Positions 19,603 through 34,356 of a DNA stretch of 64,000 nucleotides are shown here, one piece after another. The DNA comes from Lachnoclostridium sp. An169. Its GTDB lineage: Bacteria > Bacillota > Clostridia > Lachnospirales > Lachnospiraceae. The notes under the pieces are model-generated. The model saw nothing but the letters and a program-made list of their open reading frames with translations, was not told the DNA's origin and did not search any database. The first letter of the stretch is position 1; the number at the start of each line of letters is the position of its first letter. Location: positions 1-64,000 of the forward strand of contig NZ_NFKT01000014.1 of NCBI RefSeq assembly GCF_002160525.1. Direction: 5' to 3'. Made by a program: the position numbers and the translations under genes.

Positions 19603-20340
19603 TCAGTGGAGTTCTTTTACTTTTGCGAGAGCCGCGCTGTCCGCCACGATCACCACATCCGTATGAAGCTGAAGAATCGATGCGGGAACCTCCGGTGTAA
19701 TAGGTCCGTAAAATGCTTTTTCCACGATCTCAGCCTTGTCCTCACCGCTCACAACGAGGAGGATTTTCTTTGCCTGCATAATCGTACCGATTCCCATGGT
19801 GTACGCCTGTCTCGGCACATCGTCCGCAGATGCGAAAAACCTCTTGTTCGCCTCAATCGTGCTCTCGGTCAGGTTCACACAGTGGGTTGTCTTTGCAAAA
19901 GCGGTATCCGGCTCATTGAAACCGATATGCCCGTTATGTCCGAGCCCCAGAAGCTGAATATCCACGCCGCCGAAGGAGCGGATCAGCTCTTCATATCTTG
20001 CGCACTCCATATCGGCATCCGGCTCCATTCCGTTCGGAACATGGGTATTCTCCGGTTTGATGTTCACCCGGTCGAAAAGATGCTTGTGCATGAAATAGTA
20101 ATAGCTCTGGTCATTGTCTCTCGTCAGCCCGCGGTACTCGTCAAGATTCACTGTATGCACCTCTGAAAAATCAAGATCGTGCTTGTTATACCACTCCACT
20201 AGCTGGTCATATGTACCGATGGGTGAAGACCCGGTCGCCAGACCCAGCACACAGTCCGGCTTCAGGATGATCTGTGCCGACAGAATATTTGCCGCCTTCC
20301 GGCTCATTTCCTGATAATTTTTTGTTTCAAAGATTTTCAT
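19603..20340 (-). CDS. nagB: Glucosamine-6-phosphate deaminase
   Basis: A 245-residue isomerase/deaminase that converts glucosamine-6-P to fructose-6-P and ammonia. Conserved parts are LGLATGSSPIGTYD (phosphate loop), VNLDEYRGL (catalytic aspartate), LLGLGHNGHIGFNEPD and the C-terminal LHTDVVIVADSAAL. An AGGAGG lies 8 bases before the ATG. It is the first known gene of the nagB-nagA unit. The long leader contains a terminator-like hairpin and a small open frame, suggesting attenuation. Confidence 0.97.
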   Translation of the reverse strand: MKIFETKNYQEMSRKAANILSAQIILKPDCVLGLATGSSPIGTYDQLVEWYNKHDLDFSEVHTVNLDEYRGLTRDNDQSYYYFMHKHLFDRVNIKPENTHVPNGMEPDADMECARYEELIRSFGGVDIQLLGLGHNGHIGFNEPDTAFAKTTHCVNLTESTIEANKRFFASADDVPRQAYTMGIGTIMQAKKILLVVSGEDKAEIVEKAFYGPITPEVPASILQLHTDVVIVADSAALAKVKELH

Positions 20341-20354
20341 GGTTTCCTACCTCC

Positions 20355-20486
20355 TCATAGTTCGTTTTCGCACGGAATCCGCTCTGTGTCCATCCTCCGG
20401 CGCGCTGTAATGCCGTGTAAAAAAGACCAGATTTCCAAAGTATAAAGCAGCACTTTATTTCTTGAAAATCTGGTCGTATCCTTCAT
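20355..20486 (-). CDS. Possible 43-codon leader ORF of nagB
   Basis: ATG at 20486, preceded by CTGGGGGTTACTCT, runs in frame to TGA at 20357-20355, which lies directly against the nagB ribosome site. The sequence begins MKDTTRFSRNKVLL. The terminator-like hairpin at 20425-20475 is inside this frame, so ribosomes on it would melt the hairpin. The weak Shine-Dalgarno site and lack of a recognisable product leave open that it is chance. Confidence 0.35.
   Translation of the reverse strand: MKDTTRFSRNKVLLYTLEIWSFLHGITARRRMDTERIPCENEL
20419..20475 (-). terminator. Terminator/attenuator hairpin in front of nagB
   Basis: A 51-base hairpin with outer arms GACCAGATTT..CAA (14 bp, one mismatch) and inner AAAG/CTTT pairing, followed on the minus strand by TTTTTT (20424-20419). 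It can end truA transcripts. Because a good promoter lies upstream of it at 20517-20545, it can also attenuate nagBA. Confidence 0.8.
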
Positions 20487-20516
20487 AGAGTAACCCCCAG
20501 TGCAATAACTATGTTA

Positions 20517-20545
20517 ATACTAGCAACGAACCGCGCAGTTGTCAA
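20517..20545 (-). promoter_or_regulatory. Promoter of nagB
   Basis: TTGACA (20545-20540), 17 bp, TAGTAT (20522-20517). It lies between the truA stop and the hairpin at 20425-20475, giving a leader of about 170 bases before nagB. Confidence 0.8.
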
Positions 20546-20595
20546 GTCCTCACAGAGGCTTTTCCCCTGCCTTTATCGCAGGCAGCTTCATTTTC

Positions 20596-21333
20596 TCACG
20601 GGTACTCGATCCCCACAAGCACAAGCCCCTGAGGAGGCGCTGTAGGACCTGCCGTCTCCCGGTCTTTCGCCTCAATAATCTCCTTCACACGTTCCGCCGG
20701 CATAAAACCTCTCCCCACCTGGACCAGGGTGCCGGCGATAATGCGGACCATGTTGTAGAGGAATCCGTTTCCCCGGACCCTCACCGTGAACATGTCCCCC
20801 TGCTTTTCCACATCCAGACTGTAGACGGTACGAACCGTATCTTCCACATGGGTATGAATGTTACAGAAACTCTTGAAATCATGCCTTCCCCGGATATACT
20901 CCGCTGCCTTCCGCATGGCGTCCAGATCCAGCGGGTATGAGACAAACCAGGAGGTATGTCTTACAAGCGGGTCCGGCATCGTACTGTTATAGATGGAGTA
21001 TTCATAGGTCTTGACCGAATCACAGTGTCTCGGATGCCAGTCCGGCGCCACCTCCTCCGAGCGTACCACAACCACATCCTCCGGCATGCCGCTGTTCACC
21101 GCATAGGCGATGCGCTCCGGCGGGATCGGTGTATCCGTGTCAAACACCGCCACATTTCCGCGGGCATGGACGCCCGCATCCGTCCGGCTTGCACCGATCA
21201 CTTTGATCTGCTCTCCTGTTATCTTCGAAAGCTGCCGGTTCAGTACTCCCTCCACCGTAATTCCGTTATTCTGCAGCTGCCATCCGCAGTAAGCCGTCCC
21301 GTCATACGCGACGGTCAATTTGATTCTTTTCAT
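20596..21333 (-). CDS. truA: tRNA pseudouridine synthase A
   Basis: A 245-residue enzyme that makes pseudouridine at positions 38-40 of tRNA anticodon stems. The catalytic aspartate is D52 in GASRTDAGVHARGNV; other landmarks are YDGTAYCGWQ at 10-19, KTYEYSIYN and GNGFLYNMVRI. It follows ecfT by 9 bases, the usual Firmicute order. The expected downstream rplM-rpsI pair is displaced to 12 kb. Confidence 0.97.
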   Translation of the reverse strand: MKRIKLTVAYDGTAYCGWQLQNNGITVEGVLNRQLSKITGEQIKVIGASRTDAGVHARGNVAVFDTDTPIPPERIAYAVNSGMPEDVVVVRSEEVAPDWHPRHCDSVKTYEYSIYNSTMPDPLVRHTSWFVSYPLDLDAMRKAAEYIRGRHDFKSFCNIHTHVEDTVRTVYSLDVEKQGDMFTVRVRGNGFLYNMVRIIAGTLVQVGRGFMPAERVKEIIEAKDRETAGPTAPPQGLVLVGIEYP

Positions 21334-21342
21334 GAAAACACC

Positions 21343-22167
21343 TCAGAATATCCACAGTTTAAAGGGGACGAACCTTCCCACTGCAACAATTACAACAAAA
21401 TAAACCAATGTCAGCAGGTATGCGACTCTGTCCCGGCTCTTATACTTCAGGGGTTTCATCTTCGTCCTTCCCTCGCCGCCGTGATAGCAGCGCGCCTCCA
21501 TAGCCATGGCAAGATCGCTTGCACGGCGGAAAGCGGAGACGAAAAGCGGCACAAGAATCGGCACCATGGCCTTTGCCCTCTGAATAATATTTCCGCTCTC
21601 AAAATCAGCGCCGCGGGCCTGCTGCGCCTTCATAATCTTGTCCGTCTCCTCCAGAAGAATCGGGATGAAACGCAGGGCGATGGACATAATCATCGCCACC
21701 TCATGCACCGGCACGTTGATCCTGTTGAGAGGATGAAGCAGCTTTTCGATTCCGTCTGTCAGTCCGTTGGGCGATGTCGTAAAGGTCATAATCGACGAGC
21801 CGGTCACCAGATAGATCAGCCGGACCGCCATAAACACGGATGTTCTCAGGCCGTTTTCCGTGATGGTAAAGATCCAGAAATGGACCAGGGTATTCCCGCC
21901 CCGAGTAAGGAACAGGTTCATCACAACGGTAAACATCAGAAGGATCACGATCGGCTTGAGCCCCCGCAGAATATATTTCAGCGGCACTTTGGAAAGACGG
22001 ATGACCGCCCCCAGAAAAAGGGTGGCAACCACGTAGCCGAGGATATTATTCTGTACAAACAGGGACACAAGGAAAACCAGGGTGCAGACAATCTTCACTC
22101 TGGGATCCAGTCTGTGTATTCTGCTTTCTGCCGGGTAATACTGTCCTATCGTAATATCTCTAATCAT
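21343..22167 (-). CDS. ecfT: Energy-coupling factor transporter transmembrane protein EcfT
   Basis: A 274-residue membrane scaffold of ECF vitamin transporters. It has four to six hydrophobic segments and the two coupling-helix motifs that contact the ATPases, seen as QQARGADFE (AxR type) and FRRASDLAMAMEARCY. The ATG overlaps the stop of ecfA2 by 8 bases. It forms the shared module with EcfA1 and EcfA2; substrate-binding S components must be encoded elsewhere. Confidence 0.95.
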   Translation of the reverse strand: MIRDITIGQYYPAESRIHRLDPRVKIVCTLVFLVSLFVQNNILGYVVATLFLGAVIRLSKVPLKYILRGLKPIVILLMFTVVMNLFLTRGGNTLVHFWIFTITENGLRTSVFMAVRLIYLVTGSSIMTFTTSPNGLTDGIEKLLHPLNRINVPVHEVAMIMSIALRFIPILLEETDKIMKAQQARGADFESGNIIQRAKAMVPILVPLFVSAFRRASDLAMAMEARCYHGGEGRTKMKPLKYKSRDRVAYLLTLVYFVVIVAVGRFVPFKLWIF

Positions 22168-23008
22168 GGAAACTCCTCATTATCTCATCCGCCGCCTCTT
22201 CAATGGTCGTCACATCCGGCGACACCGGGAAACCGCGTTCCTTTAATTCATGCATCACATAGGTCACCTGGGGTGCTGCAAGCCCTACCTTTTCCAACTC
22301 TTTATAATGGGAAAACACTTCCCTGGGGACGCCGTCGTACATCTTCTCCCCCCGGTTCATCACAATGATGCGGTCCACATATTCTGCAATATCTTCCATA
22401 CTGTGCGAGACGAGAATCACCGTCATCCCCGTCTGCCTGTGAAGATAATCTATCTGGTCAAGGATCTCATCCCTTCCCTTCGGATCCAGCCCCGCCGTAG
22501 GCTCGTCCAGCACGAGTACCTTCGGACGCATGGCCAGAATCCCGGCGATGGCCACACGCCGTTTCTGCCCGCCGGACAGTTCAAAAGGCGACTGTCTGTA
22601 ATATTTTTCCGGGAATCCCACCAACTCCAGAGCTTCTCTCGCCCTCTTCTCACACTCTTCCGGCGAAAGTCCCTGATTCTTCGGTCCGAAGCAGACGTCA
22701 GTGATCACGTCCACCTCGAAGAGCTGATATTCCGGATACTGGAACACGAGCCCCACCTGGCTGCGCAGTTTCCGCATATCGTAGCCTTCCTCATAGATAT
22801 TCTGTCCCTCATAGAGAATCTTTCCGGAGGTCGCCCTGATCAGCCCGTTCAGATGCTGGATCAGCGTGGACTTTCCGGAGCCTGTGTGCCCGATAATCCC
22901 CACGAACTGCCCCTGGGGAATCTCCAGGCTCACGTCCTTCAATGCCTGTTTCTCATAGGCAGTACCGGGACTGTATACATAATTCACATGTTCTAACGCA
23001 ATCGACAT
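22160..23008 (-). CDS. ecfA2: Energy-coupling factor transporter ATPase EcfA2
   Basis: A 282-residue ATPase. Walker [11 protein letters not shown]-loop [11 protein letters not shown], signature LSGGQKRR, Walker B VLVLDEP and switch histidine in VSHSMEDI are intact. YQLFE after the Q-loop is characteristic of the second ECF ATPase. It overlaps ecfA1 by 16 bases and ecfT by 8, so the three are translationally coupled. Confidence 0.96.
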
Positions 23009-23880
23009 AAGGCTTCCACCAACTCTTCCCTTCTCAAGATCCCCCGCGGCAGGTCCAGGCCGCGTTTCCTAAGTTCCTCTGCAAGCATCGTCACCTGGGG
23101 CACATCCATACGGTAGGATTTCAGCGTATCCACCTGGCTGAATATCTCCCGCGGAGTCCCGTGCATGACAATGTGTCCGTCATCCATGACGAAGACCTGG
23201 TCCGCGTCAACGACTTCTTCCATATAGTGTGTGATCAGAATCGCGGTCACATGCTTTTCTTTCCTCAGCTTCTGCACCGCACGGATCACTTCTTTTCTTC
23301 CATTCGGATCCAGCATGGCAGTGGGTTCGTCCAGTACAATGCACTTTGGTTCCATGGCAATAACTCCTGCAATAGCAACCCGCTGCTTCTGCCCGCCGGA
23401 CAGTTTGTTTGGCGACGCCTTGCGGTACTCCAGCATACCCACGGAGCGCAGACTGTCCTCCACACGTTTCCAGATCTCATCAGTGGGCACGCCCAGGTTC
23501 TCCGGCCCGAATCCGACGTCCTCCTCGACCACCGTACCGATGATCTGGTTGTCCGGATTCTGGAACACCATCCCCGCGCTCTGCCGGATGTTCCACAGTT
23601 CATCCGGATCCCGGGTATCCTTTCCGTCCACCCACATGGTTCCGCCAGTAGGAACAAGAATGGCGTTCATATGTTTTGCCAGTGTAGATTTTCCGGAACC
23701 ATTGTGTCCGAGGATCGCCACAAATGACCCCTGGGGCACATCGATATCGATCCCGTCTATGGCGCGCTCCGATCCGATAATATTTCCTTCTTCATCCCTT
23801 TTATCATATTCATATACAAGCTGTTCGGCGTGTATCATTTCCTTTGGCACTGCTTTTGCCTCCATCTTAAAATCCTGCAT
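22993..23880 (-). CDS. ecfA1: Energy-coupling factor transporter ATPase EcfA1
   Basis: A 295-residue ATPase with Walker [11 protein letters not shown]-loop [12 protein letters not shown], signature LSGGQKQR, Walker B CIVLDEP and switch histidine in [16 protein letters not shown] is characteristic of EcfA1. The N-terminus is about 15 residues longer than usual; a start at the internal methionine before [10 protein letters not shown] is possible. First gene of the ecfA1-ecfA2-ecfT-truA operon, driven by the promoter at 23988. Confidence 0.95.
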
Positions 23881-23987
23881 GCTTCCGTCTGTCGCACCTG
23901 CCGCGGGCTCGCAGATCCCATCTGCCCGCGCCGCCGTGCGGCTTACTGCTTCCGTCTGTTTCTGCCGCCGTGCGACTCATGCCCTAT

Positions 23988-24016
23988 ATTTTACGACATC
24001 ACAAACTATTTTGCAA
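23988..24016 (-). promoter_or_regulatory. Promoter of the ecf-truA operon
   Basis: TTGCAA (24016-24011), 17 bp, TAAAAT (23993-23988). The leader of about 105 bases carries a direct repeat (GCTTCCGTCTGT at about 23880 and 23947, GCCGCCGTGCG also twice) whose role is unknown. Confidence 0.75.
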
Positions 24017-24081
24017 GACTGTCCTGTCCCGCTGTCCTGCCGCCCGTCTTCATCCCGCAGTTTCCTCCTTCACCTTCATAC

Positions 24082-24134
24082 AAAAGTCCGGCAGGTCCGA
24101 TGTCAGTGTACTCCTGATATCAGATCCTGCCGGA
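24082..24134 (-). terminator. Terminator after the hyp operon
   Basis: Minus-strand arms TCCGGCAGG and CCTGCCGGA at the base of a longer imperfect stem that also pairs TGATATCA with TGACATCG, followed by CTTTTG. It lies 25 bases after the stop of the membrane protein gene. Confidence 0.8.
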
Positions 24135-24159
24135 TGCTTCTTTCCTCTTTTTCCGGTTC

Positions 24160-25209
24160 TTACCGGATATCCGCTCTTGCCGCCGCGTCCTTATAATATT
24201 TGAAATCTGTAAAAATCTCGTTCCTGTACGGATTTCTCTTCTTCTTCACCGATGCATAGATAATATATGCCAGAGCTGCAATATTTACGATCAGCGCCAG
24301 AGCGCTAACAATTGTCATCATGGTCGGGTCGGCGTTGGCGTTTCCGCCCTCCACGATTCCATTCAGCGTTCCGTCCGCATACAGCTTCGGCAGCGTTGCC
24401 CATGGGAAGATCCGGGTTCCGTCCGAGAGCGTCTCCTGAAAGAGCGGGAATACCTGGGCAAACATGCACCAGATACAGAGCGTGTTGGCACGGTTCATGA
24501 TCCAGCCGCCTTTGTTCCAAAGGAGAGCCGCAATGGTCGGTGCCAGAAGGAGGGCGATGCCGCAGAACCATGCATGTGTAGGCAGACAGTTGTATGTGTA
24601 AGCAAAATTCCAGATATCATAAACGATAATATATACCCAGATCATATCCGGCCATATCATATCCTTTTTATCTTTTGAGGAATAGACTGCCCACCATCCG
24701 GTCATGCAGAAAATATTGATAATTCCCGCCAACCCGTTGAACACATTATGCCATCCGCCGTAAAGCCACACATCTTCGGAGGACAGCCACCAGGAATACC
24801 ACCCGTTGATGGCAGATTCAAAATCACTGGCCACTGCTATCAGAATATTGATAGCTACGATGACGAATGGATATGCCTTGAACCAGTGGGTTTTCCCGAT
24901 TCCCCATCCGTATTTGATCATCATAAATCCGATACAGCCCGCAAGGGATGCATAGAGCTTCGCATAGTGGAACCACCCGTTCATATAGACATAGGTCTGA
25001 TTTTCCAGAGCCCACTGTGCTCCCATCCCCGCGCCCACGGCGATGGCGATGAAATATACGGTCAGCGCGGCGGGAATTACAAAGAACATGATAATTCCTC
25101 CGGCCTTTGTTCTCCTGGCAAATTCATTGAGCAGGATCAGAGCCGCAAGCACTCCGAGCATGGCGATCCACTGCGGTACCGCATCCGCTCCGTAAACATG
25201 AAATAACAT
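24160..25209 (-). CDS. Polytopic membrane protein of unknown function (possibly DUF5692)
   Basis: A 349-residue integral membrane protein with about nine hydrophobic segments (roughly 12-31, 37-62, 86-102, 108-130, 153-176, 189-210, 213-231, 238-256, 298-322). It is strikingly rich in tryptophan and tyrosine and has histidines at helix edges (GWFHYAK, KTHWFKAY, GWHNVFNG, PTHAWFCG) that could bind a metal or heme. I think it belongs to DUF5692 but cannot confirm that. It ends the operon tetR-hypB-flavoprotein-hypA and starts 21 bases after hypA, which ties it to nickel handling or to electron transfer from the flavoprotein. No transporter motif is seen. Confidence 0.7.
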   Translation of the reverse strand: MLFHVYGADAVPQWIAMLGVLAALILLNEFARRTKAGGIIMFFVIPAALTVYFIAIAVGAGMGAQWALENQTYVYMNGWFHYAKLYASLAGCIGFMMIKYGWGIGKTHWFKAYPFVIVAINILIAVASDFESAINGWYSWWLSSEDVWLYGGWHNVFNGLAGIINIFCMTGWWAVYSSKDKKDMIWPDMIWVYIIVYDIWNFAYTYNCLPTHAWFCGIALLLAPTIAALLWNKGGWIMNRANTLCIWCMFAQVFPLFQETLSDGTRIFPWATLPKLYADGTLNGIVEGGNANADPTMMTIVSALALIVNIAALAYIIYASVKKKRNPYRNEIFTDFKYYKDAAARADIR

Positions 25210-25230
25210 ATGAAATTACCCCCTTTTCTC

Positions 25231-25575
25231 TCATTGAGCCTCGATTTCCCTGATATTACATTCATTTCCGCAGACAAGATATGTCTCCGGACTTTTGCAC
25301 CAGGGGCACTGCCTGCCGTATTCCACCGTGGGATAGGTCTTTCCGCATGCCTCACAGTATGTGACGGCGGGCAGCGTCTCGATCTTCATCTCCGCATTTT
25401 CAATCAGCGGAAACTTCTTCCTGTAATACTGCCAGCAGTCGGTCAGGTAGTCATGCACGACGCCGCTGACCTCCCCGATCTCCAGGGTGACAGACGCGAT
25501 CTCACTTAAGTTGTTCTCCTCTGCGACGCTCCGGAGCGTCTTTGTGATATGTACGATGATTCCAAGTTCATGCAT
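25231..25575 (-). CDS. hypA: Hydrogenase/urease nickel incorporation protein HypA
   Basis: A 114-residue nickel metallochaperone. It starts MHEL, giving the nickel-binding H2, and has a zinc site with Cys74, Cys77, Cys90 and Cys93 (CEAC and CPWC). The start at 25575 is fixed by AGGAGG and by the need for a histidine at position 2; an upstream in-frame ATG at 25608 would destroy the site. HypA normally works with HypB to load nickel into [NiFe]-hydrogenase or urease, but neither enzyme nor hypCDEF is in the window. Confidence 0.95.
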   Translation of the reverse strand: MHELGIIVHITKTLRSVAEENNLSEIASVTLEIGEVSGVVHDYLTDCWQYYRKKFPLIENAEMKIETLPAVTYCEACGKTYPTVEYGRQCPWCKSPETYLVCGNECNIREIEAQ

Positions 25576-25691
25576 TTTCCCGCACCTCCTGCTGTCTGTC
25601 CTTTCCACACAGCGCTTTTCTTCCTGACACGCTGATTCACGGTCTGATTGTACCGGGCTGTCTGTGCCGGCGTGCAGCCCGGATTTGCCGT

Positions 25692-28409
25692 CTACGGTTT
25701 CTTCTTTAATTTAATTTTAACCGCCCGCTTCAGCGCATAGGGAAGGATTCCTTTTAATTTATCCTCTGCCGTGCGCATCCTGCTCGCCTCCGGAAGATCA
25801 CGGCTTAAGTGGATGGCGTCGAACTCGCAGCGGGTCGTACACAGACCGCATCCCACGCACTTGTTCTCATCCACGATCGTGGCGCCGCATCCGAGGCACC
25901 GGGCCGCCTCTGCCTTCACCTGTTCCTCGGTAAACGTGGAGCGCAGGTCACGGAAGGTATCCGCCGCGGTTCCCGCTTTCTTTCCCGGAATCTGCCGTTT
26001 TGCATTGTCAAATTCTTCGATCACCACATCTGATTTGTCCAGTTCGATGAAGTGGCGCAGATCCCGCCCCAGAGTGAGGGAGTGTCCCTCGTGGACAAAA
26101 CGGTGAATCGATTCGCAGCCCTGTTTTCCCGCAGCAATGGCGTCGATGGCAAACTTCGGACCTGTGCATACGTCGCCGCCCACAAAGATATCCGGCTCTC
26201 CGGTCTGATAGGTGATCCCATCCGCCTCAGCAGTCTGGTTCGGTCTGAGTTTCACATCTGTCCCTTTGAGCAGATCTCCCCACACCACGGACTGACCGAT
26301 GGAGAGAATGACATTTTCACATGGCACTGTGATACATTCTTCCTCGCTGTAAACAGGGGCGAACTTTCCTGCAGCGTCAAAGACAGAGACACATTTCTTC
26401 AGCACGATCCCGCATACCTTTCCGTCTTCCGTGAGGATCTCTTTCGGTCCCCAGCCGTTTCCGATGGCGATGCCTTCCTCTTTTGCCTCCTCAACCTCGT
26501 CGGCAGCCGCCGGCATCTCTTTCTCCGACTCCAGGCAGTACATGGATACAGAGCCGTCTCCGGCGCGAAGGGCAGTTCTTGCCACATCCACCGCCACGTT
26601 TCCGCCGCCGATCACCACGGTATCTCCATGCAGCTTCACCTCTGTTTTTTCCTGCGCCATGCCTTTTTCCGCCAGGTTCACGGTCCGAAGGAAATCCACT
26701 CCGGTGAGAACTCCCCCGGCATCTTCCCCGGGCACTCCTGCTTTTCTTCCGCCCTGGGCTCCAATGGCGATATAGAACGCCCGGTATCCCTGGTCTCTCA
26801 GCTCCTGGATGGTCACATCTTTTCCCACTTCCACACCGCAGCAGAACTCCACGTTCATCTGCCGCAGCACATCAATTTCCGCCTCGATCACAGACTTTTC
26901 CAGGCGGAAGGATGGGATGCCGTTGAGCAGCATGCCCCCGGGACGCGCCTCTTTTTCAAACACCGTCACCGGATAACCTTTCGTCCGCAAATAGTAAGCT
27001 GCAGACATCCCGGCCGGTCCCGCGCCGATCACGGCAATCTTCTGCTCAAACTGTTTTCCCTCATGATTTTCGCATTTTGGGATATAGCGGTGTTCCGCAT
27101 GGAGCTCTTTCTCCGCAATGAACTTTTTGATTTCATCGATGGCAACCGCCTGATCCACCGTTCCTCTTGTGCAGGCATCCTCGCATCGGCGGTTGCAGAC
27201 GGCTCCGCACACTGCCGGGAAAGGATTGTCGTGCTTGATCAGCTTCAGGGCGTCCATATACCTTCCCTCTGCCGCCATCTTTATGTAGCCCTGCACCGGA
27301 AGATGAGCCGGACAGGCAGTCTTGCAGGGAGACGTTCCCGTCTCATAGCAGTTGATTTTTGCGTGGTTCCTGTAGTCGGGATCCCATTTGTCCCTGCCCC
27401 ATTTTTCCGTGTCCGGAAGAAGCGCTTTCGGATACCGGATCTCCCCATGCTTTGTGCAGAGCTTCTGTCCCAGTTTTGCCGCCCCCACCGGACAGACTTC
27501 CACGCACTGTCCGCAGGCCACGCATTTTGACGCTTCCACATGTGCGCGGTAAGCCGAACGCGACATATTCGGAGTATTGAAAAGCTGGGAGGTCCTCAGA
27601 CCGTTGCACACGCCCGGGGCGCAGTTGCAGATGGCAAAGATCTTCTCCTCCCCGTCAATGTTGGTAATCTGATGGACAAATCCATTTTCCTCCGCCCGTT
27701 CCAGGATCTCTATCACCTCATCATAATCGATATAGCGCCCTTTTCCCGTCTCAACCAGATAGTCCGCCATATCTCCCACACCGATGCACAGGTCCCCCTC
27801 GATCTCTCCGCATCCCTCTCCGCGCATCCTCTGCTGTCTCCTGCAGGAGCAGGCTCCCACAGCGTACTTATCCTGATATTTCTTCAGCCAGTGGGAAATG
27901 TGTTCCACGCTGGCGGACTGCTGCTGCGCGGGAATCGCCTTCTCCACAGGAATGACATGCATGCCGATCCCCGATCCTCCCGGCGGCACCATGGGCGTCA
28001 CCTTTTCAAGCGGGAGCCGGGACATATTTTCAAAAAAATCCGCGAGAATCGGATGCTCCCGGGTCTGCTTCTCATTCATCATCATAAACTCCGCGCAGCC
28101 CGGCACGAACATGGGAAGGACATACTGCTTATGCCGGTCTTCGTTCTCCCAGTTGTACTCAATCATCCCGATGACCGCCATCTCGTCCAGGAGCTGCTGC
28201 ACACGTTCCTTATCTTTCCCCGACTTCCGGGCAATCTCCTCCAGAGTCATGGGCTTTCTTACTTTCATGGAGAGACAGACCTCAGCCATCTCATCTGTCA
28301 GCACTTCTGCCAGCCCCCAGTATTCCGGATCATCCACCGTCACTTTGTGACCGATCCGGTCCGTGATCATCTGTCCTAATTTCAGGATCAGTGTTCTCTC
28401 TTCCTTCAT
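25692..28409 (-). CDS. Large FAD-dependent oxidoreductase with multiple 4Fe-4S clusters (GltD-like, 905 residues)
   Basis: Domains in order: a winged-helix-like region (about 50-110, TLEEIARKSGKDKERV); a cysteine-rich part (CSCRR near 187, CNCAPGVC near 260) followed by a ferredoxin motif CVACGQCVEVCP near 292-303; a GltD-type N-terminal Fe-S domain (CKTACPAHLPVQGYI, CGAVCNRRCEDAC, about 356-408); FAD and NAD(P) Rossmann folds (VIGAGPAGMSAAYYL near 450, VIGGGNVAVDVA near 590, FVGGDVCTGP near 735); and a C-terminal ferredoxin (CLGCG, CVGCGLCTTRC, about 838-860). It most resembles NADPH-dependent electron-bifurcating or glutamate-synthase-type flavoproteins. Fused helix-turn-helix-like and dual ferredoxin ends are unusual. 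Cytoplasmic, between hypB and hypA; electron partner unknown. Confidence 0.85.
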   Translation of the reverse strand: MKEERTLILKLGQMITDRIGHKVTVDDPEYWGLAEVLTDEMAEVCLSMKVRKPMTLEEIARKSGKDKERVQQLLDEMAVIGMIEYNWENEDRHKQYVLPMFVPGCAEFMMMNEKQTREHPILADFFENMSRLPLEKVTPMVPPGGSGIGMHVIPVEKAIPAQQQSASVEHISHWLKKYQDKYAVGACSCRRQQRMRGEGCGEIEGDLCIGVGDMADYLVETGKGRYIDYDEVIEILERAEENGFVHQITNIDGEEKIFAICNCAPGVCNGLRTSQLFNTPNMSRSAYRAHVEASKCVACGQCVEVCPVGAAKLGQKLCTKHGEIRYPKALLPDTEKWGRDKWDPDYRNHAKINCYETGTSPCKTACPAHLPVQGYIKMAAEGRYMDALKLIKHDNPFPAVCGAVCNRRCEDACTRGTVDQAVAIDEIKKFIAEKELHAEHRYIPKCENHEGKQFEQKIAVIGAGPAGMSAAYYLRTKGYPVTVFEKEARPGGMLLNGIPSFRLEKSVIEAEIDVLRQMNVEFCCGVEVGKDVTIQELRDQGYRAFYIAIGAQGGRKAGVPGEDAGGVLTGVDFLRTVNLAEKGMAQEKTEVKLHGDTVVIGGGNVAVDVARTALRAGDGSVSMYCLESEKEMPAAADEVEEAKEEGIAIGNGWGPKEILTEDGKVCGIVLKKCVSVFDAAGKFAPVYSEEECITVPCENVILSIGQSVVWGDLLKGTDVKLRPNQTAEADGITYQTGEPDIFVGGDVCTGPKFAIDAIAAGKQGCESIHRFVHEGHSLTLGRDLRHFIELDKSDVVIEEFDNAKRQIPGKKAGTAADTFRDLRSTFTEEQVKAEAARCLGCGATIVDENKCVGCGLCTTRCEFDAIHLSRDLPEASRMRTAEDKLKGILPYALKRAVKIKLKKKP

Positions 28410-28428
28410 TCACCTTCCTCCTCTTCTT

Positions 28429-29094
28429 CTATTTTTCTTTCCATTCCCTTACCTGTTCCCGGAGCCAGGACACCCACTCGTCGATCCCTTCCCCGGTCCG
28501 CGCTGAAATCGGGATGATCTTCATATCCGGATTGAGTTTCAGCGCCCTTGATCTGCACGCCTCCAGATCAAAGTCGAAATACGGGAGCACATCGATCTTA
28601 TTGATCAGAAGGCACTGGCACACCTGGAACATGAGCGGATATTTCAGCGGCTTGTCGTCGCCCTCAGGCACACTGAGAATCATTGCATTCTTCACCGCCC
28701 CTGTATCAAACTCCGCCGGGCAGACCAGGTTGCCCACATTTTCCAGAACAGCAAGGTCTATGCCGCCGGTTCCCAGCTGCTCCAGTCCCTGATGGGTCAT
28801 ATCCGCATCCAGATGACACATGCCGCCTGTGTGGAGCTGAATCACTTTTACTCCGGTTCTGCTGATGGCATCCGCATCCACCGCACTGTCGATGTCCGCT
28901 TCCATCACTCCGATGCGCATCTCATCTTTCAGCATTTCAATGGTCCGGGTCAGCATGGTCGTCTTTCCCGCGCCCGGGGAGGACATAAGGTTCAGAAGGA
29001 AGGTTCCTCCTGTTTTCAGCTCCTCCCTCACCCTGTCTGCCTCCCTGTCGTTATCCGCAAATACTCTCTGCTTGATCTCATATACTTTGTACAT
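28429..29094 (-). CDS. hypB: Nickel incorporation GTPase HypB
   Basis: A 221-residue SIMIBI-class GTPase that drives nickel insertion with HypA. Walker A SSPGAGKTT is at 38-46, the metal-site Cys93-His94 in MCHLDADM, then ENVGNLVCPAEFD and the guanine motif NKIDVLPYFDFD. There is no histidine-rich nickel-storage tail. The start at 29094 follows GAGGAG; 17 further upstream codons in frame are not family sequence. It begins 10 bases after the tetR stop and ends 19 bases before the flavoprotein gene. Confidence 0.95.
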   Translation of the reverse strand: MYKVYEIKQRVFADNDREADRVREELKTGGTFLLNLMSSPGAGKTTMLTRTIEMLKDEMRIGVMEADIDSAVDADAISRTGVKVIQLHTGGMCHLDADMTHQGLEQLGTGGIDLAVLENVGNLVCPAEFDTGAVKNAMILSVPEGDDKPLKYPLMFQVCQCLLINKIDVLPYFDFDLEACRSRALKLNPDMKIIPISARTGEGIDEWVSWLREQVREWKEK

Positions 29095-29104
29095 AGCTTT
29101 CTCC

Positions 29105-29794
29105 TCACTTTTCCTGTTCCTGCGCTTCCGACGGTCCGCCCGCACTCCGGGTCTTAAGTCCGCCTACAAGAAGATCCCGGGTAATCCGTACCTGAAGTCC
29201 CAGTCCAACCCGGGCGTCAAGACTTAACATACTGCCGTTCCATGCCAGTTTTTTCATCAGACTGAACATGGTATGTGCCAGGGAATAACAGACCTCCTCC
29301 GGCGACCACAGGAAGGAAAGAGTTCCGTCGTCCAGCCCCTTCTGCAGTGCGTCCGTAACTCTGGGTTTCAGACTCATAATACAGTCCTCATATTCTTTGA
29401 GCCGTTCCACCTCAATCCCGTTCCTGCGGACAAACACATCGAACTCCTGGAGAAATTTCAGCGAGGGAATCTCTTCCTCAAAAATCTTCACCAGAACATC
29501 CATGATGCATTCGATCTGTCCCAACCCTGTCATCTCCGCGTATTTCCTTCCGGACAGGGCTTTCAGGTACCGTGTCTCGATTTTCTTCCAGCATGCCACC
29601 CCGGTGCGGACTGCAAGTTCCGCTTTCGTCTCAAAATAACGGTAGATCGTGGCGCTGCCGACGCCTGCATCTGCCGCCACATCATCGATGGACGTATCCT
29701 CGATTCCCTTCTCGCAGAACAGTTCCAGAGCTGCATTCACAATCTTCTCCGAACGCAGTCTCGCTTTCCTGATTACTGCTGCTGATTCCTTCAT
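29105..29794 (-). CDS. TetR-family transcriptional regulator of the hyp operon
   Basis: A regulator of about 229 residues. The N-terminal helix-turn-helix is typical (SEKIVNAALELFCEKGIEDTSIDDVAADAGVGSATIYRYFETKAEL). The C-terminal ligand domain is not assignable. The start at 29794 is preferred because of AGGTGA; the frame is open to an ATG at 29848. It is the first gene of its own operon, upstream of hypB, and a 17-bp palindrome lies in front of it, so autoregulation of the whole nickel/flavoprotein operon is likely. Confidence 0.9.
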   Translation of the reverse strand: MKESAAVIRKARLRSEKIVNAALELFCEKGIEDTSIDDVAADAGVGSATIYRYFETKAELAVRTGVACWKKIETRYLKALSGRKYAEMTGLGQIECIMDVLVKIFEEEIPSLKFLQEFDVFVRRNGIEVERLKEYEDCIMSLKPRVTDALQKGLDDGTLSFLWSPEEVCYSLAHTMFSLMKKLAWNGSMLSLDARVGLGLQVRITRDLLVGGLKTRSAGGPSEAQEQEK

Positions 29795-29860
29795 CCGACG
29801 CTCACCTCTCCTGCTTCCGCCTCCCTCGTTTTTCCGCCGCCTCTTCACACTGGCTTTGCT

Positions 29861-29877
29861 TGATAGTTATACTATCA
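29861..29877. promoter_or_regulatory. Palindromic operator candidate for the TetR protein
   Basis: TGATAGT-TAT-ACTATCA is a perfect palindrome with a 3-base centre, 67 bases before the tetR start. Possible minus-strand -10 elements (TATGAT, TATAAC) overlap or adjoin it. Size and position fit a TetR operator. Confidence 0.65.
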
Positions 29878-29945
29878 TATTTATGCACTTCTCACAACTA
29901 ATTTCTGTTATATTTTTAACTATTAGGCATTTTATCATAAGATTA

Positions 29946-29974
29946 TTGAAGTTTTTTGTGCATTATGATATTGT
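29946..29974 (+). promoter_or_regulatory. Promoter of the glp operon
   Basis: TTGAAG (29946-29951), 17 bp, TATTGT (29969-29974), about 30 bases before the glpK ATG. The -10 box departs from consensus, suggesting need for an activator. Confidence 0.6.
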
Positions 29975-30006
29975 AAATTCATAATCAAATGCACGGAGGT
30001 AGCACT

Positions 30007-31503
30007 ATGACAAAATATATTATGGCATTGGATTCCGGCACCACGAGCAACCGCTGCATCCTTTTTGATAGAGAAGGAAATGTATGCAGCATGGCGCAGC
30101 GGGAATTCACACAGTATTTTCCCCGGCCGGGATGGGTGGAACACGATGCAGATGAGATCTGGGCAGCACAGCTCGGCGTCGCGGTGGAGGCAATGAACAA
30201 GATCGGCGCAGCCGCACAGGATATCGCGGCAATCGGCATTACCAACCAGCGGGAGACCGTAGTCGTCTGGGACAAGACAACGGGTGAGCCCGTATACCGG
30301 GCAATCGTCTGGCAGTGCCGCCGTACTTCCGAATACTGTGATTCCCTGAAAGAGAAGGGACTGACGGAATCCTTCCGCCGGAAAACCGGACTCGTCATCG
30401 ACGCATATTTTTCCGCCACCAAAATAAAATGGATTCTGGATCATGTTCCCGGCGCCCGGGAAAGGGCGGTCCGCGGGGAGCTCCTCTTCGGCACGATAGA
30501 AACCTGGCTGATCTGGAAGCTCACAAAGGGGAAGGTTCATGTTACAGATTATTCCAATGCTTCCCGCACTATGCTTTTCAACATCCGCACCCTTTCCTGG
30601 GACGAAGAGATCTTAAGAGAACTGGATATCCCTGCCTGCATGCTTCCGGCACCGGTTCCTTCCAGCCAGGTCTACGGATACGCAGATCCTTCGTTTCTGG
30701 GCGGTTCTATTCCCATCGCCGGGGCGGCAGGGGATCAGCAGTCTGCGCTGTTCGGGCAGGCCTGCTTCCATCCCGGAGAGGCGAAGAATACATACGGCAC
30801 CGGCTGTTTCCTGCTTATGAATACAGGCAAGACGCCAGTATTTTCCGAAAACGGACTTGTGACGACCATCGCCTGGGGGCTGGAGGGGAAAGTGACCTAT
30901 GCCCTGGAAGGCTCTATCTTTGTAGGCGGAGCGGCTGTCCAGTGGCTCCGGGACGAGATGCGCCTGATCGACTCTGCCGCTGATTCGGAGTACATGGCTT
31001 CCAAAGTACCGGATACAAACGGCTGCTATGTGGTGCCCGCATTTACCGGGCTGGGCGCCCCCTACTGGGATCAGTATGCCCGGGGTACCATCGTGGGTAT
31101 TACCCGGGGCGTGAACAAATACCATATTATCCGCGCCACTCTGGAATCCATCGCCTACCAGGTCAATGCGGTGCTCCGCGCCATGGAAGCCGATGCCGGA
31201 ATCCGGCTCTCCGCCCTGAAGGTGGACGGCGGCGCAAGCGCCAATAACTTTCTCATGCAGACACAGGCTGATTTAAGCGGTGCTCCGGTAAACCGTCCGG
31301 TCTGCGTGGAGACCACCGCCATGGGAGCCGCCTTTCTGGCAGGCCTGGCAGTGGGGTACTGGAAAGATACGGACGCCATCGCCGTAAACCGCACCACAGA
31401 CCGGATCTTCACCCCCGCCATCAGCGGTGAGAAACGCGCGGAAATGATCCGCGGCTGGGACCGGGCTGTCCGCTGCTCCTACGGGTGGGCGAAGGAGGAC
31501 TGA
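30007..31503 (+). CDS. glpK: Glycerol kinase
   Basis: A 498-residue FGGY-family kinase that makes sn-glycerol 3-phosphate. Motifs present are [15 protein letters not shown], the glycerol-binding [10 protein letters not shown] and [30 protein letters not shown] and the C-terminal [15 protein letters not shown]. The start at 30007 follows GGAGG; the frame extends six codons further. First gene of the glp operon, with only four bases to the next gene. No glpF facilitator is next to it. Confidence 0.97.
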
Positions 31504-31507
31504 ATCT

Positions 31508-32944
31508 ATGTATGACATTGTAATTATCGGGGCAGGCGTATCCGGCGCGGCCACAGCCCGGGAACTTTCCCGCTTCCGCGCGCGGATCTGCGTGATCGAG
31601 CGGGGAGAGGACGTCTGCTGCGGCACATCAAAGGCGAACAGCGGCATCGTCCATGCCGGTTTCGATGCCCCGGAAGGCTCTCTCATGGCAAGGCTGAATG
31701 TACGCGGGAACCAGATGATGGAGGTTCTGTCCCGGGAACTGGATTTTCCTTTCCGGAGGAACGGCGCACTTGTGGTCTGCCGGGATGAGCAGATGCTCCC
31801 CGCCCTGGAGACACTCCGCCAGAGGGGCGTGCAAAACGGCGTCACCGGTCTTTGCATTCTGAACCGGGAGGAAGTCCACAGCATGGAGCCCGCGCTGGCC
31901 GACGACGTCTGCGGCGCCCTCTTCGCCCCTGCAAGCGGAATCGTATGCCCTTTTGAGCTGAATATCGCCATGGCGGAGAATGCCGCCGTAAACGGCGTGG
32001 AATTTCATATGAACACGGAAGCGGAGGACATCCGCCGGACAGAGGACGGATACGAGGTTCTCACCAACAGGGGACCCCTGCGGACGAAGTGCGTTGTGAA
32101 TGCGGCCGGAGTCTATGCCGACCGCTTCCACAACATGGTCAGCGAAACACCCCTGCACATCACGCCCAGACGCGGGGAGTACTGTCTGCTCGACAAAACA
32201 ACAGGCTCTCTTGTGTCGCACACGATTTTTCCTCTTCCGGACAGAGATGGAAAGGGGATCCTCGTAACACCCACCGTACACGGCAATCTTCTCACCGGTC
32301 CTACCGCGGAAGATATCCCTGACAAAGAGGGAGTCTGCACCACTGCCGAAGGGCTCTCCCGGGTTATGGAGCGCGCCGCTCTCCATGTGAAAGGAATTCC
32401 CTTCCGGGAAGTCATCACCTCTTTTGCAGGACTGCGCGCCTGTGAAGACGGACATGATTTCGTCATCGGAGAGCCTGCGGATGCGCCGGGATTCGTGGAC
32501 TGTGCCGGGATTGCCTCCCCCGGGCTGTCCGCCTCTCCCGCCATCGGGGAAATGATCTCAGAACTTCTCAGGAAACGGCTGAATCTGGAACCGAATCCGG
32601 AATTTATTCCTTACAGGAAGGGGAGCCCCCGTCTGTCCTCCCTCCCATTTGAAGAGCGGAACCGGCTGATCCGCGGCAATCCGGCATACGGAAACATCAT
32701 CTGCCGGTGCGAGGAGGTCTCCGAGGGAGAGATCATCGACGCCATCCGCCGTCCTCTGGGCGCCCGTTCCCTGGACGGCGTCAAGCGGCGCGTGCGCGCC
32801 GGGATGGGACGCTGCCAGGGGGGATTCTGTTCCCCGAAAGTAATGGAGATCCTTGCCCGGGAGCTGAGAACCGGTATGGATGAAATCACAAAAGCAGGTC
32901 CCGGCTCCGCGGTTCTGAAAGGAAGAAACATGGAGTGGCTTTAA
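31508..32944 (+). CDS. glpA: FAD-dependent glycerol-3-phosphate dehydrogenase-like protein with C-terminal BFD-type [2Fe-2S] domain
   Basis: A 478-residue flavoprotein of the GlpA type. It has the FAD loop IVIIGAGVSGAATAREL at 4-20, a DAO-like body and a C-terminal BFD-like domain with cysteines in IICRCEEV and MGRCQGGFCSP that should hold a [2Fe-2S] cluster. In the clostridial operon it oxidises glycerol 3-phosphate to dihydroxyacetone phosphate and passes electrons to the next flavoprotein. Symbol assigned from operon context. Four bases separate it from glpK. Confidence 0.88.
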   Translation: MYDIVIIGAGVSGAATARELSRFRARICVIERGEDVCCGTSKANSGIVHAGFDAPEGSLMARLNVRGNQMMEVLSRELDFPFRRNGALVVCRDEQMLPALETLRQRGVQNGVTGLCILNREEVHSMEPALADDVCGALFAPASGIVCPFELNIAMAENAAVNGVEFHMNTEAEDIRRTEDGYEVLTNRGPLRTKCVVNAAGVYADRFHNMVSETPLHITPRRGEYCLLDKTTGSLVSHTIFPLPDRDGKGILVTPTVHGNLLTGPTAEDIPDKEGVCTTAEGLSRVMERAALHVKGIPFREVITSFAGLRACEDGHDFVIGEPADAPGFVDCAGIASPGLSASPAIGEMISELLRKRLNLEPNPEFIPYRKGSPRLSSLPFEERNRLIRGNPAYGNIICRCEEVSEGEIIDAIRRPLGARSLDGVKRRVRAGMGRCQGGFCSPKVMEILARELRTGMDEITKAGPGSAVLKGRNMEWL

Positions 32945-32982
32945 AAACCCCGGCTTATCGCCCTGAGAAAGGAGATTCACTT

Positions 32983-34356
32983 ATGCAGACATATGACATC
33001 GTTATTATCGGAGGCGGCCCGGCCGGTCTTGCCGCCGCCATCGCTGCAAAAGAATCCGGTATTGACAGGATTCTGATCCTGGAGCGCTCGGAAAGAGCCG
33101 GCGGGATACTCAACCAGTGTATCCACAACGGATTCGGGCTGCATACGTTTCACGAGGAGCTCACCGGTCCGGAATATGCCGACCGCTTTATCCGACAGGC
33201 GGAATCTCTCGGGATTGAGTGCCGGCTTCGGACGATGGCAGTGGATATCGCAGCAGGTGAGGCAGCGCCTGTCCACACGGTAACCGCTGTCAGTTCCACG
33301 GACGGGCTTGTACAGATCTGTGCCCGCTCAGTCATTCTGGCAATGGGCTGCCGGGAGCGTCCCCGCGGCGCCTTAAATATCCCCGGCTTCCGTCCTGCCG
33401 GAATCTTCTCCGCAGGGACGGCGCAGAGACTGGTCAACATGGACGGTTATATGCCCGGGCGGGAGGTGGTGATCCTGGGATCAGGAGATATCGGTCTGAT
33501 CATGGCAAGGCGCATGACGCTGGAAGGTGCGAAAGTCCACGCTGTGGCGGAGATCATGCCCTACAGCGGCGGGCTGAAGCGAAACATCGTCCAGTGCCTG
33601 GACGACTACGGGATTCCGCTCCTGCTCAGCCACACTGTCACATGGATTCACGGGAAGGACAGGGTGGAGGGCGTCACCCTATCTCAGGTAGATGAAAACC
33701 GCCGTCCCATCCCGGGTACCGAACAGTTCTATCCCTGCGACACCCTGCTCCTCTCTGTGGGGCTGATCCCTGAAAATGAGCTTTCCCGCGGCATGGGCGT
33801 AACGCTCAGCCCTGCCACTTCCGGTCCCCTGGTAAACGAGAGCCTTGAGACAGACATCCCCGGAGTCTTTGCCTGCGGCAACGTGCTCCATGTCCATGAT
33901 CTTGTGGATTATGTCTCCGAGGAAGCCTCTGCTGCCGGAAGGCACGCCGCAGACTATGTAAAACACCTGGGAGATAAATCCGCAGGGACTCCTTTCCCCA
34001 TGATTTCCCCTGCATCAAAGCGCAGGATTCCCTCCTCATCGGAGCGCGGGATTCCTCTTACAGCAGAGCACGGAATCCGCTACACGGTTCCCGCCTTTAT
34101 ACGCCCTGAGAGAATGCCTTCGAAGCTGACGATCCGTTTCCGGGTCACAGATGTGTACAGAAACTGCCGGGTCTGCGTCTGTTTCGATGATATTCCGGTG
34201 AAGAAAAAAGCGCGCAGAATCGTGGCTCCCGGTGAAATGGAAGAGATCCGTCTCGAGAGGGAACTCTTTGAACGGCATCCCGTCCCCAAGACGATCCGCT
34301 TCTCTCTGGAAACTCAGAACGATGAAGATACTCAGGATTTCAAAGAAGGAAGATGA
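32983..34356 (+). CDS. NAD(P)/FAD-dependent oxidoreductase of the glp operon (GlpB position)
   Basis: A 457-residue pyridine-nucleotide-disulfide-type flavoprotein. FAD loop IVIIGGGPAGLAAAIAAKES, a second Rossmann loop VVILGSGDIGLIMARRM and the closing VFACGNVLHVHDLVDYV are present. An extra C-terminal stretch of about 110 residues follows, rich in repeats such as SERGIP and AEHGIR. It probably accepts electrons from the GlpA-like subunit. The start at 32983 follows AAAGGAG. Its stop overlaps the next start (ATGA). Confidence 0.85.
   Translation: MQTYDIVIIGGGPAGLAAAIAAKESGIDRILILERSERAGGILNQCIHNGFGLHTFHEELTGPEYADRFIRQAESLGIECRLRTMAVDIAAGEAAPVHTVTAVSSTDGLVQICARSVILAMGCRERPRGALNIPGFRPAGIFSAGTAQRLVNMDGYMPGREVVILGSGDIGLIMARRMTLEGAKVHAVAEIMPYSGGLKRNIVQCLDDYGIPLLLSHTVTWIHGKDRVEGVTLSQVDENRRPIPGTEQFYPCDTLLLSVGLIPENELSRGMGVTLSPATSGPLVNESLETDIPGVFACGNVLHVHDLVDYVSEEASAAGRHAADYVKHLGDKSAGTPFPMISPASKRRIPSSSERGIPLTAEHGIRYTVPAFIRPERMPSKLTIRFRVTDVYRNCRVCVCFDDIPVKKKARRIVAPGEMEEIRLERELFERHPVPKTIRFSLETQNDEDTQDFKEGR

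Follow-up and report, generated by a model that had tools for sequence, protein, structure and literature searches.

Within a window of 64,000 nucleotides of Lachnoclostridium sp. An169 (contig NZ_NFKT01000014.1, positions 1 to 64,000), five open reading frames (ORFs), all on the minus strand, form one tightly spaced unit at 24160-29794. They encode, in order, a TetR-family regulator, the nickel GTPase HypB, a protein of 905 amino acids (aa) with FAD, NAD(P) and 4Fe-4S sites for which we use the working name FoxRed, the nickel metallochaperone HypA, and a membrane protein of the family DUF5692; the gaps between them are 10, 19, 116 and 21 bases. The original prediction made from this DNA, that these are a single unit with gaps of 10-116 bases, is thus borne out by ORFs, strand and spacing. 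We propose that this operon serves to reduce conjugated C=C bonds in a lipid, most likely in dietary unsaturated fatty acids (biohydrogenation), by means of a reductase supplied with nickel and driven by NAD(P)H, and we give this reading a probability of roughly one half. Analysed loci are numbered L and genomes G below, G000 being Lachnoclostridium sp. An169 itself. The features are as follows.

29861..29877, no strand: inverted repeat TGATAGT-TAT-ACTATCA with perfect 7-base arms upstream of the TetR gene, a probable TetR operator judging by the repeat and its recurrence
29105..29794, minus: TetR-family regulator, first gene (TetR_N E 6.4e-15); an alternative GTG start at 29848, giving a longer protein, is possible
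28429..29094, minus: HypB, nickel GTPase (TIGR00073, 254.9 bits against a cut-off of 121.2)
25692..28409, minus: FoxRed, 905-aa IsrA-like oxidoreductase (Fer4_20, Pyr_redox_2 and Fer4 matches)
27606..27851, minus: stretch of FoxRed with six invariant cysteines and His246, a candidate nickel/Fe-S site (99/99 aligned homologues)
25231..25575, minus: HypA, nickel metallochaperone (PF01155 E 3e-30)
24160..25209, minus: DUF5692 membrane protein, 349 aa, nine helices (PF18948 E 2.7e-132, 441 bits; AF2 pLDDT 89.7; dependence on FoxRed), a candidate fatty-acid isomerase or substrate partner
24088..24133 (arms 24088-24095 and 24126-24133), minus: inverted repeat after the last gene, visible in the sequence, a possible terminator

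The two chaperones keep their metal motifs. HypA passes the Pfam gathering score and retains H2 and C74/C77/C90/C93 (two CxxC) in 94/94 aligned sequences, and its score of 73.3 bits lies below the 88.1-bit cut-off of the hydrogenase equivalog TIGR00100. In HypB the nickel site of the G domain (C-H...C) is conserved as C93 (87/87), H94 (86/87) and C125 (87/87). The pair had been described as orphan, and locally it is: translations of 20000-34000, read by eye, contain neither hypCDEF nor hydrogenase subunits. The description does not extend to the genome, which has two hypA genes besides that of the window. The hydrogenase locus (G000 C26) carries a full hypABCDEF set (hypE, D, F, B and A by family match, hypC by reading) and adjoins NuoB/NuoD/NuoH/NuoL-like subunits, the large one being the genome's single PF00374 [NiFe]-hydrogenase match. 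A urease alpha subunit is also present, with neighbours that read as ureE, F, G and D (by reading, without a family scan). Nickel enzymes therefore do co-occur with the operon, as the original prediction had proposed to check, but the hydrogenase has its own accessory genes and the urease appears to have its own, and neither locus seems to lack just hypA and hypB. Because the hydrogenase has its own hypABCDEF and the urease locus reads as having its own accessory genes, the window's HypAB pair is an extra one, dedicated to its own operon. The genome also contains a FoxRed paralogue (925 aa; 47% identity to the window's in the N-terminal domain), accompanied by a separate hypA, hypB and TetR-like gene and by no nearby DUF5692 (G000 C88:62511-67156, which is L007:7512-12157).

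FoxRed consists, in order, of an N-terminal domain, 4Fe-4S clusters, an NfnB/GltD-like FAD/NAD(P) core and a C-terminal 4Fe-4S region, and residues ~350-844 match NfnB/GltD-type chains in the PDB. In its N-terminal part C187, C189, C208, C261, C263, C268 and His246 are invariant in 99/99 aligned homologues, and C200 is variable (75/99). The model of the N-terminus is weak (pLDDT 62), and its Foldseek matches, MarR-like winged helices for the most part and none better than E 0.02, were used only as agreement with a Pfam winged-helix match and not to assign a fold. A stand-alone 4Fe-4S protein of ~426 aa (L127:5390-6670) carries the FoxRed N-terminal domain at ~22% identity, and nine other relatives give weak matches similar to it.

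FoxRed is the likely recipient of the nickel, since HypA and HypB accompany FoxRed and not DUF5692. Among 18 listed FoxRed loci without DUF5692, 14 have a Hyp gene: both in nine, one in five (some at contig ends) and neither in four (L095, L101, L108 and L116), whose genomes have further FoxRed copies. Among 28 DUF5692 loci without FoxRed, in contrast, 26 have no Hyp gene. A metal importer adjoins the unit in 4 of 72 fetched stretches, all at distant loci. Two of these importers are of the Co/Ni type (CbiM/CbiQ, L118 and L120), and that of L120 includes a PDGLE domain, typical of nickel importers, and is assigned CbiM by NCBIfam below cut-off; the other two have FecCD-type permeases (L123 and L124, the latter also with FmdE). 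The metal motifs kept in HypA and HypB, the invariant six cysteines of FoxRed and the adjoining importers together support a nickel-served redox system, as had been predicted. In DUF5692, whose histidines and cysteines had been put forward as a possible metal site, none reaches 97% conservation across 125 members, three weak DUFw sequences excluded (H81 113, H212 117, C92 116), and we rejected such a site as the leading idea; H81 and H212 are invariant in a 54-sequence alignment of closer homologues.

Neither the gene set nor the proposal of nickel is new. According to Kronen et al. (2023, PMC10134865), 'clade 9' oxidoreductases include IsrA, an isoprene-induced candidate isoprene reductase of Acetobacterium wieringae, and a neighborhood network of 988 homologues gives HypA 0.73, HypB 0.56, DUF5692 0.4 and TetR 0.21. 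That paper proposes nickel at a site of six cysteines in IsrA. The six-cysteine stretch of FoxRed corresponds to the paper's 'cluster V', judging by the two CxC motifs. FoxRed also has the features of clade 9 or IsrA-like proteins, namely a core of Fer4_20 plus Pyr_redox_2, extra Fer4 sites, a length of ~900 aa and the two-CxC site. The same source suggests that homologues may act on terpenes and other unsaturated hydrocarbons, and it notes an oleate hydratase adjoining two Acetobacterium homologues. The string 'linole' does not occur in its main text, and the parts available to us contain neither a fatty-acid role nor a role for DUF5692. The original observation was real and its broad nickel reading right, though already published, and the metal most likely goes to the oxidoreductase.

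DUF5692 depends on FoxRed. The window's protein is a full-length member of PF18948, a Pfam family without assigned function, and is modelled confidently as nine long helices (pLDDT 89.7). In a sample of 295 relatives that includes the window's genome, FoxRed (called with the N-terminal query at E<=1e-40) occurs in 57 and DUF5692 in 43. FoxRed is present in 42 of these 43, the sole exception, G149, being a 31-position match, compared with 15 of the 252 relatives without DUF5692 (Fisher 5e-37, relatedness not corrected). Ten relatives with only weak FoxRed N-terminal matches (E 1e-10 to 1e-14, ORFs of ~300-500 aa) are excluded from the 57. An even sample of the class has DUF5692 in 26 of 391 genomes; FoxRed was found in 21 of 25 of them (the window's excluded) and in 1 of 25 genomes with neither DUF5692 nor the fatty-acid isomerase PAI described below. 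Turning from genomes to loci, we analysed the best 80 of 392 DUF5692 loci found in other, named genomes: the fetched DNA includes FoxRed at 52 of them and FoxRed together with HypA and HypB at 42, so the set is more than chance and is conserved as the original prediction expected. For the 28 loci without a local FoxRed, 26 genomes were searched (L036 was omitted, and L065 bears the same isolate name as L064), and FoxRed lies elsewhere in 20. Furthermore, the gene order of the unit is reshuffled between lineages, with DUF5692 adjoining FoxRed in several orders, which suggests that the set has been kept together by selection and not simply inherited as a block.

Several neighbors of the unit in other genomes deserve mention. 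Subdoligranulum variabile carries the whole unit (GntR, HypB, FoxRed, HypA, DUF5692) on a plasmid of 267 kb that is typed as mobilizable (L168, OY725877.1 188293-207324). A GntR-type regulator occurs within two genes of the unit, or of the cassette described below, at 15 further loci. A protein of ~112 aa, for which the copy checked (L048) gave no Pfam match, adjoins HypA at L048:11101-11439 and 13 other DUF5692 loci, mostly in Bacteroidales (cluster c4).

The clue to a substrate comes from FoxRed loci that lack DUF5692. At L098, L100 and L106 a flavoprotein of 469-485 aa adjoins the unit, and the best PDB match of the L098 protein (E 1.5e-114) is 2b9w, titled 'putative aminooxidase', which we take to be the polyunsaturated fatty acid isomerase PAI of Propionibacterium (Cutibacterium) acnes. 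Other neighbor genes match the same entry in L144 (E 3.2e-62) and L117 (E 4.1e-22). Searches with the L098 protein, which scored at most 5 candidates per genome in the 295 relatives and at most 4 in the 391 class genomes, yielded PAI homologues in 6 and 5 genomes, respectively, and FoxRed is present in 11/11. In eight of the eleven the two are in the same gene run (G126, G138, G280, G252, G336, G502, G559, G585; the G336 PAI is an open fragment of only ~110 codons), and in G100, G166 and G542 they are not. Strong PAI occurs in 5 of 15 FoxRed relatives without DUF5692 and in 0 of 42 with it (Fisher 7e-4, relatedness not corrected). A deeper search of 80 FoxRed-negative relatives found no PAI; class genomes without FoxRed were not re-searched.

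A second reductase context repeats this exchange. In L115 and L148, from two genomes of different families, a carotenoid-isomerase/RetSat-like flavoprotein and an FNR-type reductase with a 2Fe-2S domain lie between two DUF5692-family proteins (cassettes at L115:6022-10473 and L148:411-4959; the name RetSat is given by resemblance, the NCBIfam matches being below cut-off). A similar RetSat-FNR pair follows the PAI gene in four genomes (L170, L172, L174, L175), and a RetSat-like gene adjoins the HypA-FoxRed-HypB unit of L099. PAI and DUF5692 thus hold equivalent positions next to reductases of two different kinds. RetSat was set aside as a marker of FoxRed genomes, since 6/48 genomes with FoxRed against 0/32 others are too few to count alone.

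The fatty-acid reading draws on the co-occurrence of PAI and DUF5692 with FoxRed, on the equivalent positions of the two and on the status of IsrA as a candidate isoprene reductase (PMC10134865). We consider an unsaturated fatty acid or similar lipid diene slightly better than an even bet as the substrate, and an isomerase role of DUF5692 less likely than not.

A number of findings weigh against this reading. The window's own genome has neither PAI (E<=1e-10) nor a RetSat match, so its substrate would be deduced from relatives only. Among the 15 relatives that have FoxRed and not DUF5692, eight have no PAI and their FoxRed gene is not at a contig end (as it is in G058 and G182); two of the eight have a RetSat-like match. 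The limit on candidates in the PAI searches missed diverged relatives (L117, L123, L125, L143), and the absence of diverged PAI outside FoxRed genomes is not established. DUF5692 is also present in three PAI genomes, G252 among the relatives, whose PAI is weak, and G502 and G559 (2/5 of the class PAI genomes), and a diverged PAI-like gene stands together with DUF5692 at L117, L123, L125, L143, L144 and L145. These six loci show that DUF5692 is no simple substitute for PAI, and we rejected a strict either/or of the two as a general rule. The RetSat beside PAI in G100 and G166 is only ~29% identical to that of L148. FoxRed is missing from 6 of the 26 searched genomes with lone DUF5692 loci and from 4 of the 25 class DUF5692 genomes, of which G403, G462 and G582 are partial matches and G558 a weak, divergent one. 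Finally, the DUF5692 fold matched no enzyme (Foldseek best E 0.53); VIA-align gave at best Z 6.7 to seven-helix bundles (root-mean-square deviation 5.3 over 183 residues), which is within the range of unrelated helical models and was discarded.

Beside the diverged PAI-like genes a helix-turn-helix protein of ~330-360 aa is found at 8/8 loci (L144:12906-13973, L113, L117, L123, L125, L143, L145, L171).

One case concerns DUF5692 standing by itself. A lone DUF5692 of 309 aa, 39% identical to the window protein over 301 aligned positions, lies among unrelated genes in a 592-kb record of Latilactobacillus curvatus p1_CACC879 (L169:8950-9879), and FoxRed has no match in that record, the search covering it alone and not the chromosome. 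L. curvatus isolates are reported to form conjugated linoleic acid (CLA; PMC7322636). The case would fit an isomerase able to work without a nickel enzyme, but it is only a hint, since lactobacilli also possess another route to CLA (PMC13365329).

The proposed mechanism would run as follows. Bound at the inverted repeat, TetR would keep the operon off as long as no lipophilic ligand is present; in other lineages the GntR-type regulator may sense lipid. HypB and HypA would load nickel into FoxRed at its N-terminal six-cysteine site. The NfnB-like FAD core would take hydride from NAD(P)H, with electrons running along the 4Fe-4S clusters to that site, which would reduce a conjugated diene to the mono-ene. 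The diene would come from linoleate-type fatty acids through PAI, DUF5692 or another isomerase. DUF5692 would handle the substrate in the membrane and most likely make the conjugated diene there, as soluble PAI would do in other genomes. The outcome would be the removal of toxic unsaturated acids and the disposal of electrons.

The alternative that survives best keeps the reduction lipid-linked and makes DUF5692 a membrane anchor, a substrate carrier or a quinone/heme electron partner of FoxRed instead of an isomerase. Its position beside FoxRed in varied gene orders and its coexistence with PAI-like proteins at the six shared loci fit that role, whereas the occurrence of the family with the RetSat/FNR pair and on its own in the FoxRed-less L. 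curvatus record does not, and no histidine reaches the 97% conservation expected of a heme ligand. We regard this alternative as somewhat unlikely. More improbable, in our view, is that the same nickel-served diene reductase uses a small unsaturated hydrocarbon or terpene (isoprene, butadiene, monoterpenes) as electron acceptor, with DUF5692 as a membrane uptake or docking protein. The induction of IsrA by isoprene and the substrates suggested for its homologues speak for it (PMC10134865), but according to the same paper the Acetobacterium strains tested other than the isoprene reducers, several of them with clade 9 homologues, did not reduce isoprene, and this alternative does not predict a linkage with a fatty-acid isomerase family. 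That nickel goes to the membrane protein or to an unlinked enzyme, as originally predicted, is very unlikely: HypAB are generic nickel chaperones and the genome does encode a [NiFe]-hydrogenase and a urease, but those two loci have (the urease as ureE-F-G-D, by reading) accessory genes of their own, and the Hyp genes follow FoxRed rather than DUF5692.

The regulatory elements agree in part with the original prediction. The predicted TetR palindrome is present at 29861-29877. Of the 80 related DUF5692 loci, 13, the closest ones, have a closely similar TetR (>200 bits); identical half-sites precede the orthologous gene at 10 of 13 related loci. The single terminator is less secure. The repeat at 24088-24133 is visible, but the terminator scan, limited to loops of 8 bases, did not list it, its loop being ~30 bases. 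We did not use the scan as evidence, as it gave 5 promoters against 4.8 expected and 10 terminators against 5.2. The genes have their nearest relatives mostly in Mediterraneibacter genomes, and that of Mediterraneibacter catenae contains the complete unit (L016). Glycerol catabolism genes (glpK, a glpA-like gene and another FAD protein) start beside the operon at 29989-34356, and L148 likewise has a glpK-glpA pair beside its DUF5692-RetSat-FNR cassette, a possible hint of lipid breakdown; since the pair recurs only there among the loci examined, it is left as an observation. Directly downstream of the operon, at 20596-23880, lie ecfA-ecfA2-ecfT-truA. We rejected the transporter genes (21343-23880) as a nickel uptake system, because their order together with truA is presumably that of the common housekeeping ECF module.

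The gut machinery that hydrogenates unsaturated fats is poorly known, and this operon may belong to it. In its boldest form our proposal would fill two gaps. FoxRed would be the conjugated-fatty-acid reductase that gut and rumen biohydrogenation still lacks, a nickel-iron-sulfur enzyme belonging to none of the known nickel classes, and DUF5692 would be the membrane-bound linoleate isomerase still to be found, replacing PAI without being homologous to it; taken as a whole this is rather unlikely. If the linkage is functional, it provides a defined four-gene set, directly testable in culturable gut anaerobes; the nickel enzymes would gain a member able to hydrogenate conjugated C=C bonds, and DUF5692 would have a function. 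What is new is the tie to fatty-acid isomerases and, with it, a testable biohydrogenation role for DUF5692 and clade 9 oxidoreductases. DUF5692 is mentioned in a single paper of those searched. We found no papers joining linoleic-acid biohydrogenation to a reductase and hypB, nor any from 2019 on joining it to Lachnospiraceae, oxidoreductase, nickel and isomerase, in a literature search outside which lay most subscription papers and all of bioRxiv.

Compared with known systems, FoxRed resembles the NfnB and GltD-type NAD(P)H flavoproteins in its 4Fe-4S, FAD and NAD(P) core over residues ~350-844 and differs in an extra N-terminal domain of ~290 aa with the CxC-CxC site and in extra clusters. 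The [NiFe]-hydrogenase maturation set HypABCDEF is matched by HypA and HypB with intact metal motifs, but the window locus has no hypCDEF, its HypA is below the hydrogenase equivalog cut-off, and a separate complete set stands beside the hydrogenase. For the membrane-bound linoleate isomerase of Butyrivibrio fibrisolvens, the review passages seen on the subject name no gene; that DUF5692 models as a nine-helix protein is necessary for a correspondence and not specific to it. PAI homologues take the position of DUF5692 beside FoxRed or the RetSat/FNR pair in other genomes, although the two match different families, PAI being a soluble flavoenzyme and DUF5692 a membrane protein. The closest counterpart is the isr operon of A. 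wieringae (PMC10134865), which shares the ~900-aa FAD/NAD(P)/4Fe-4S protein, its six-cysteine N-terminal site and the neighboring HypA and HypB. Relative to that of strain ISORED-2, the window unit (24160-29848) lacks the second HypA and the separate 4Fe-4S ferredoxin gene, and it has in addition DUF5692 and a TetR with its inverted repeat.

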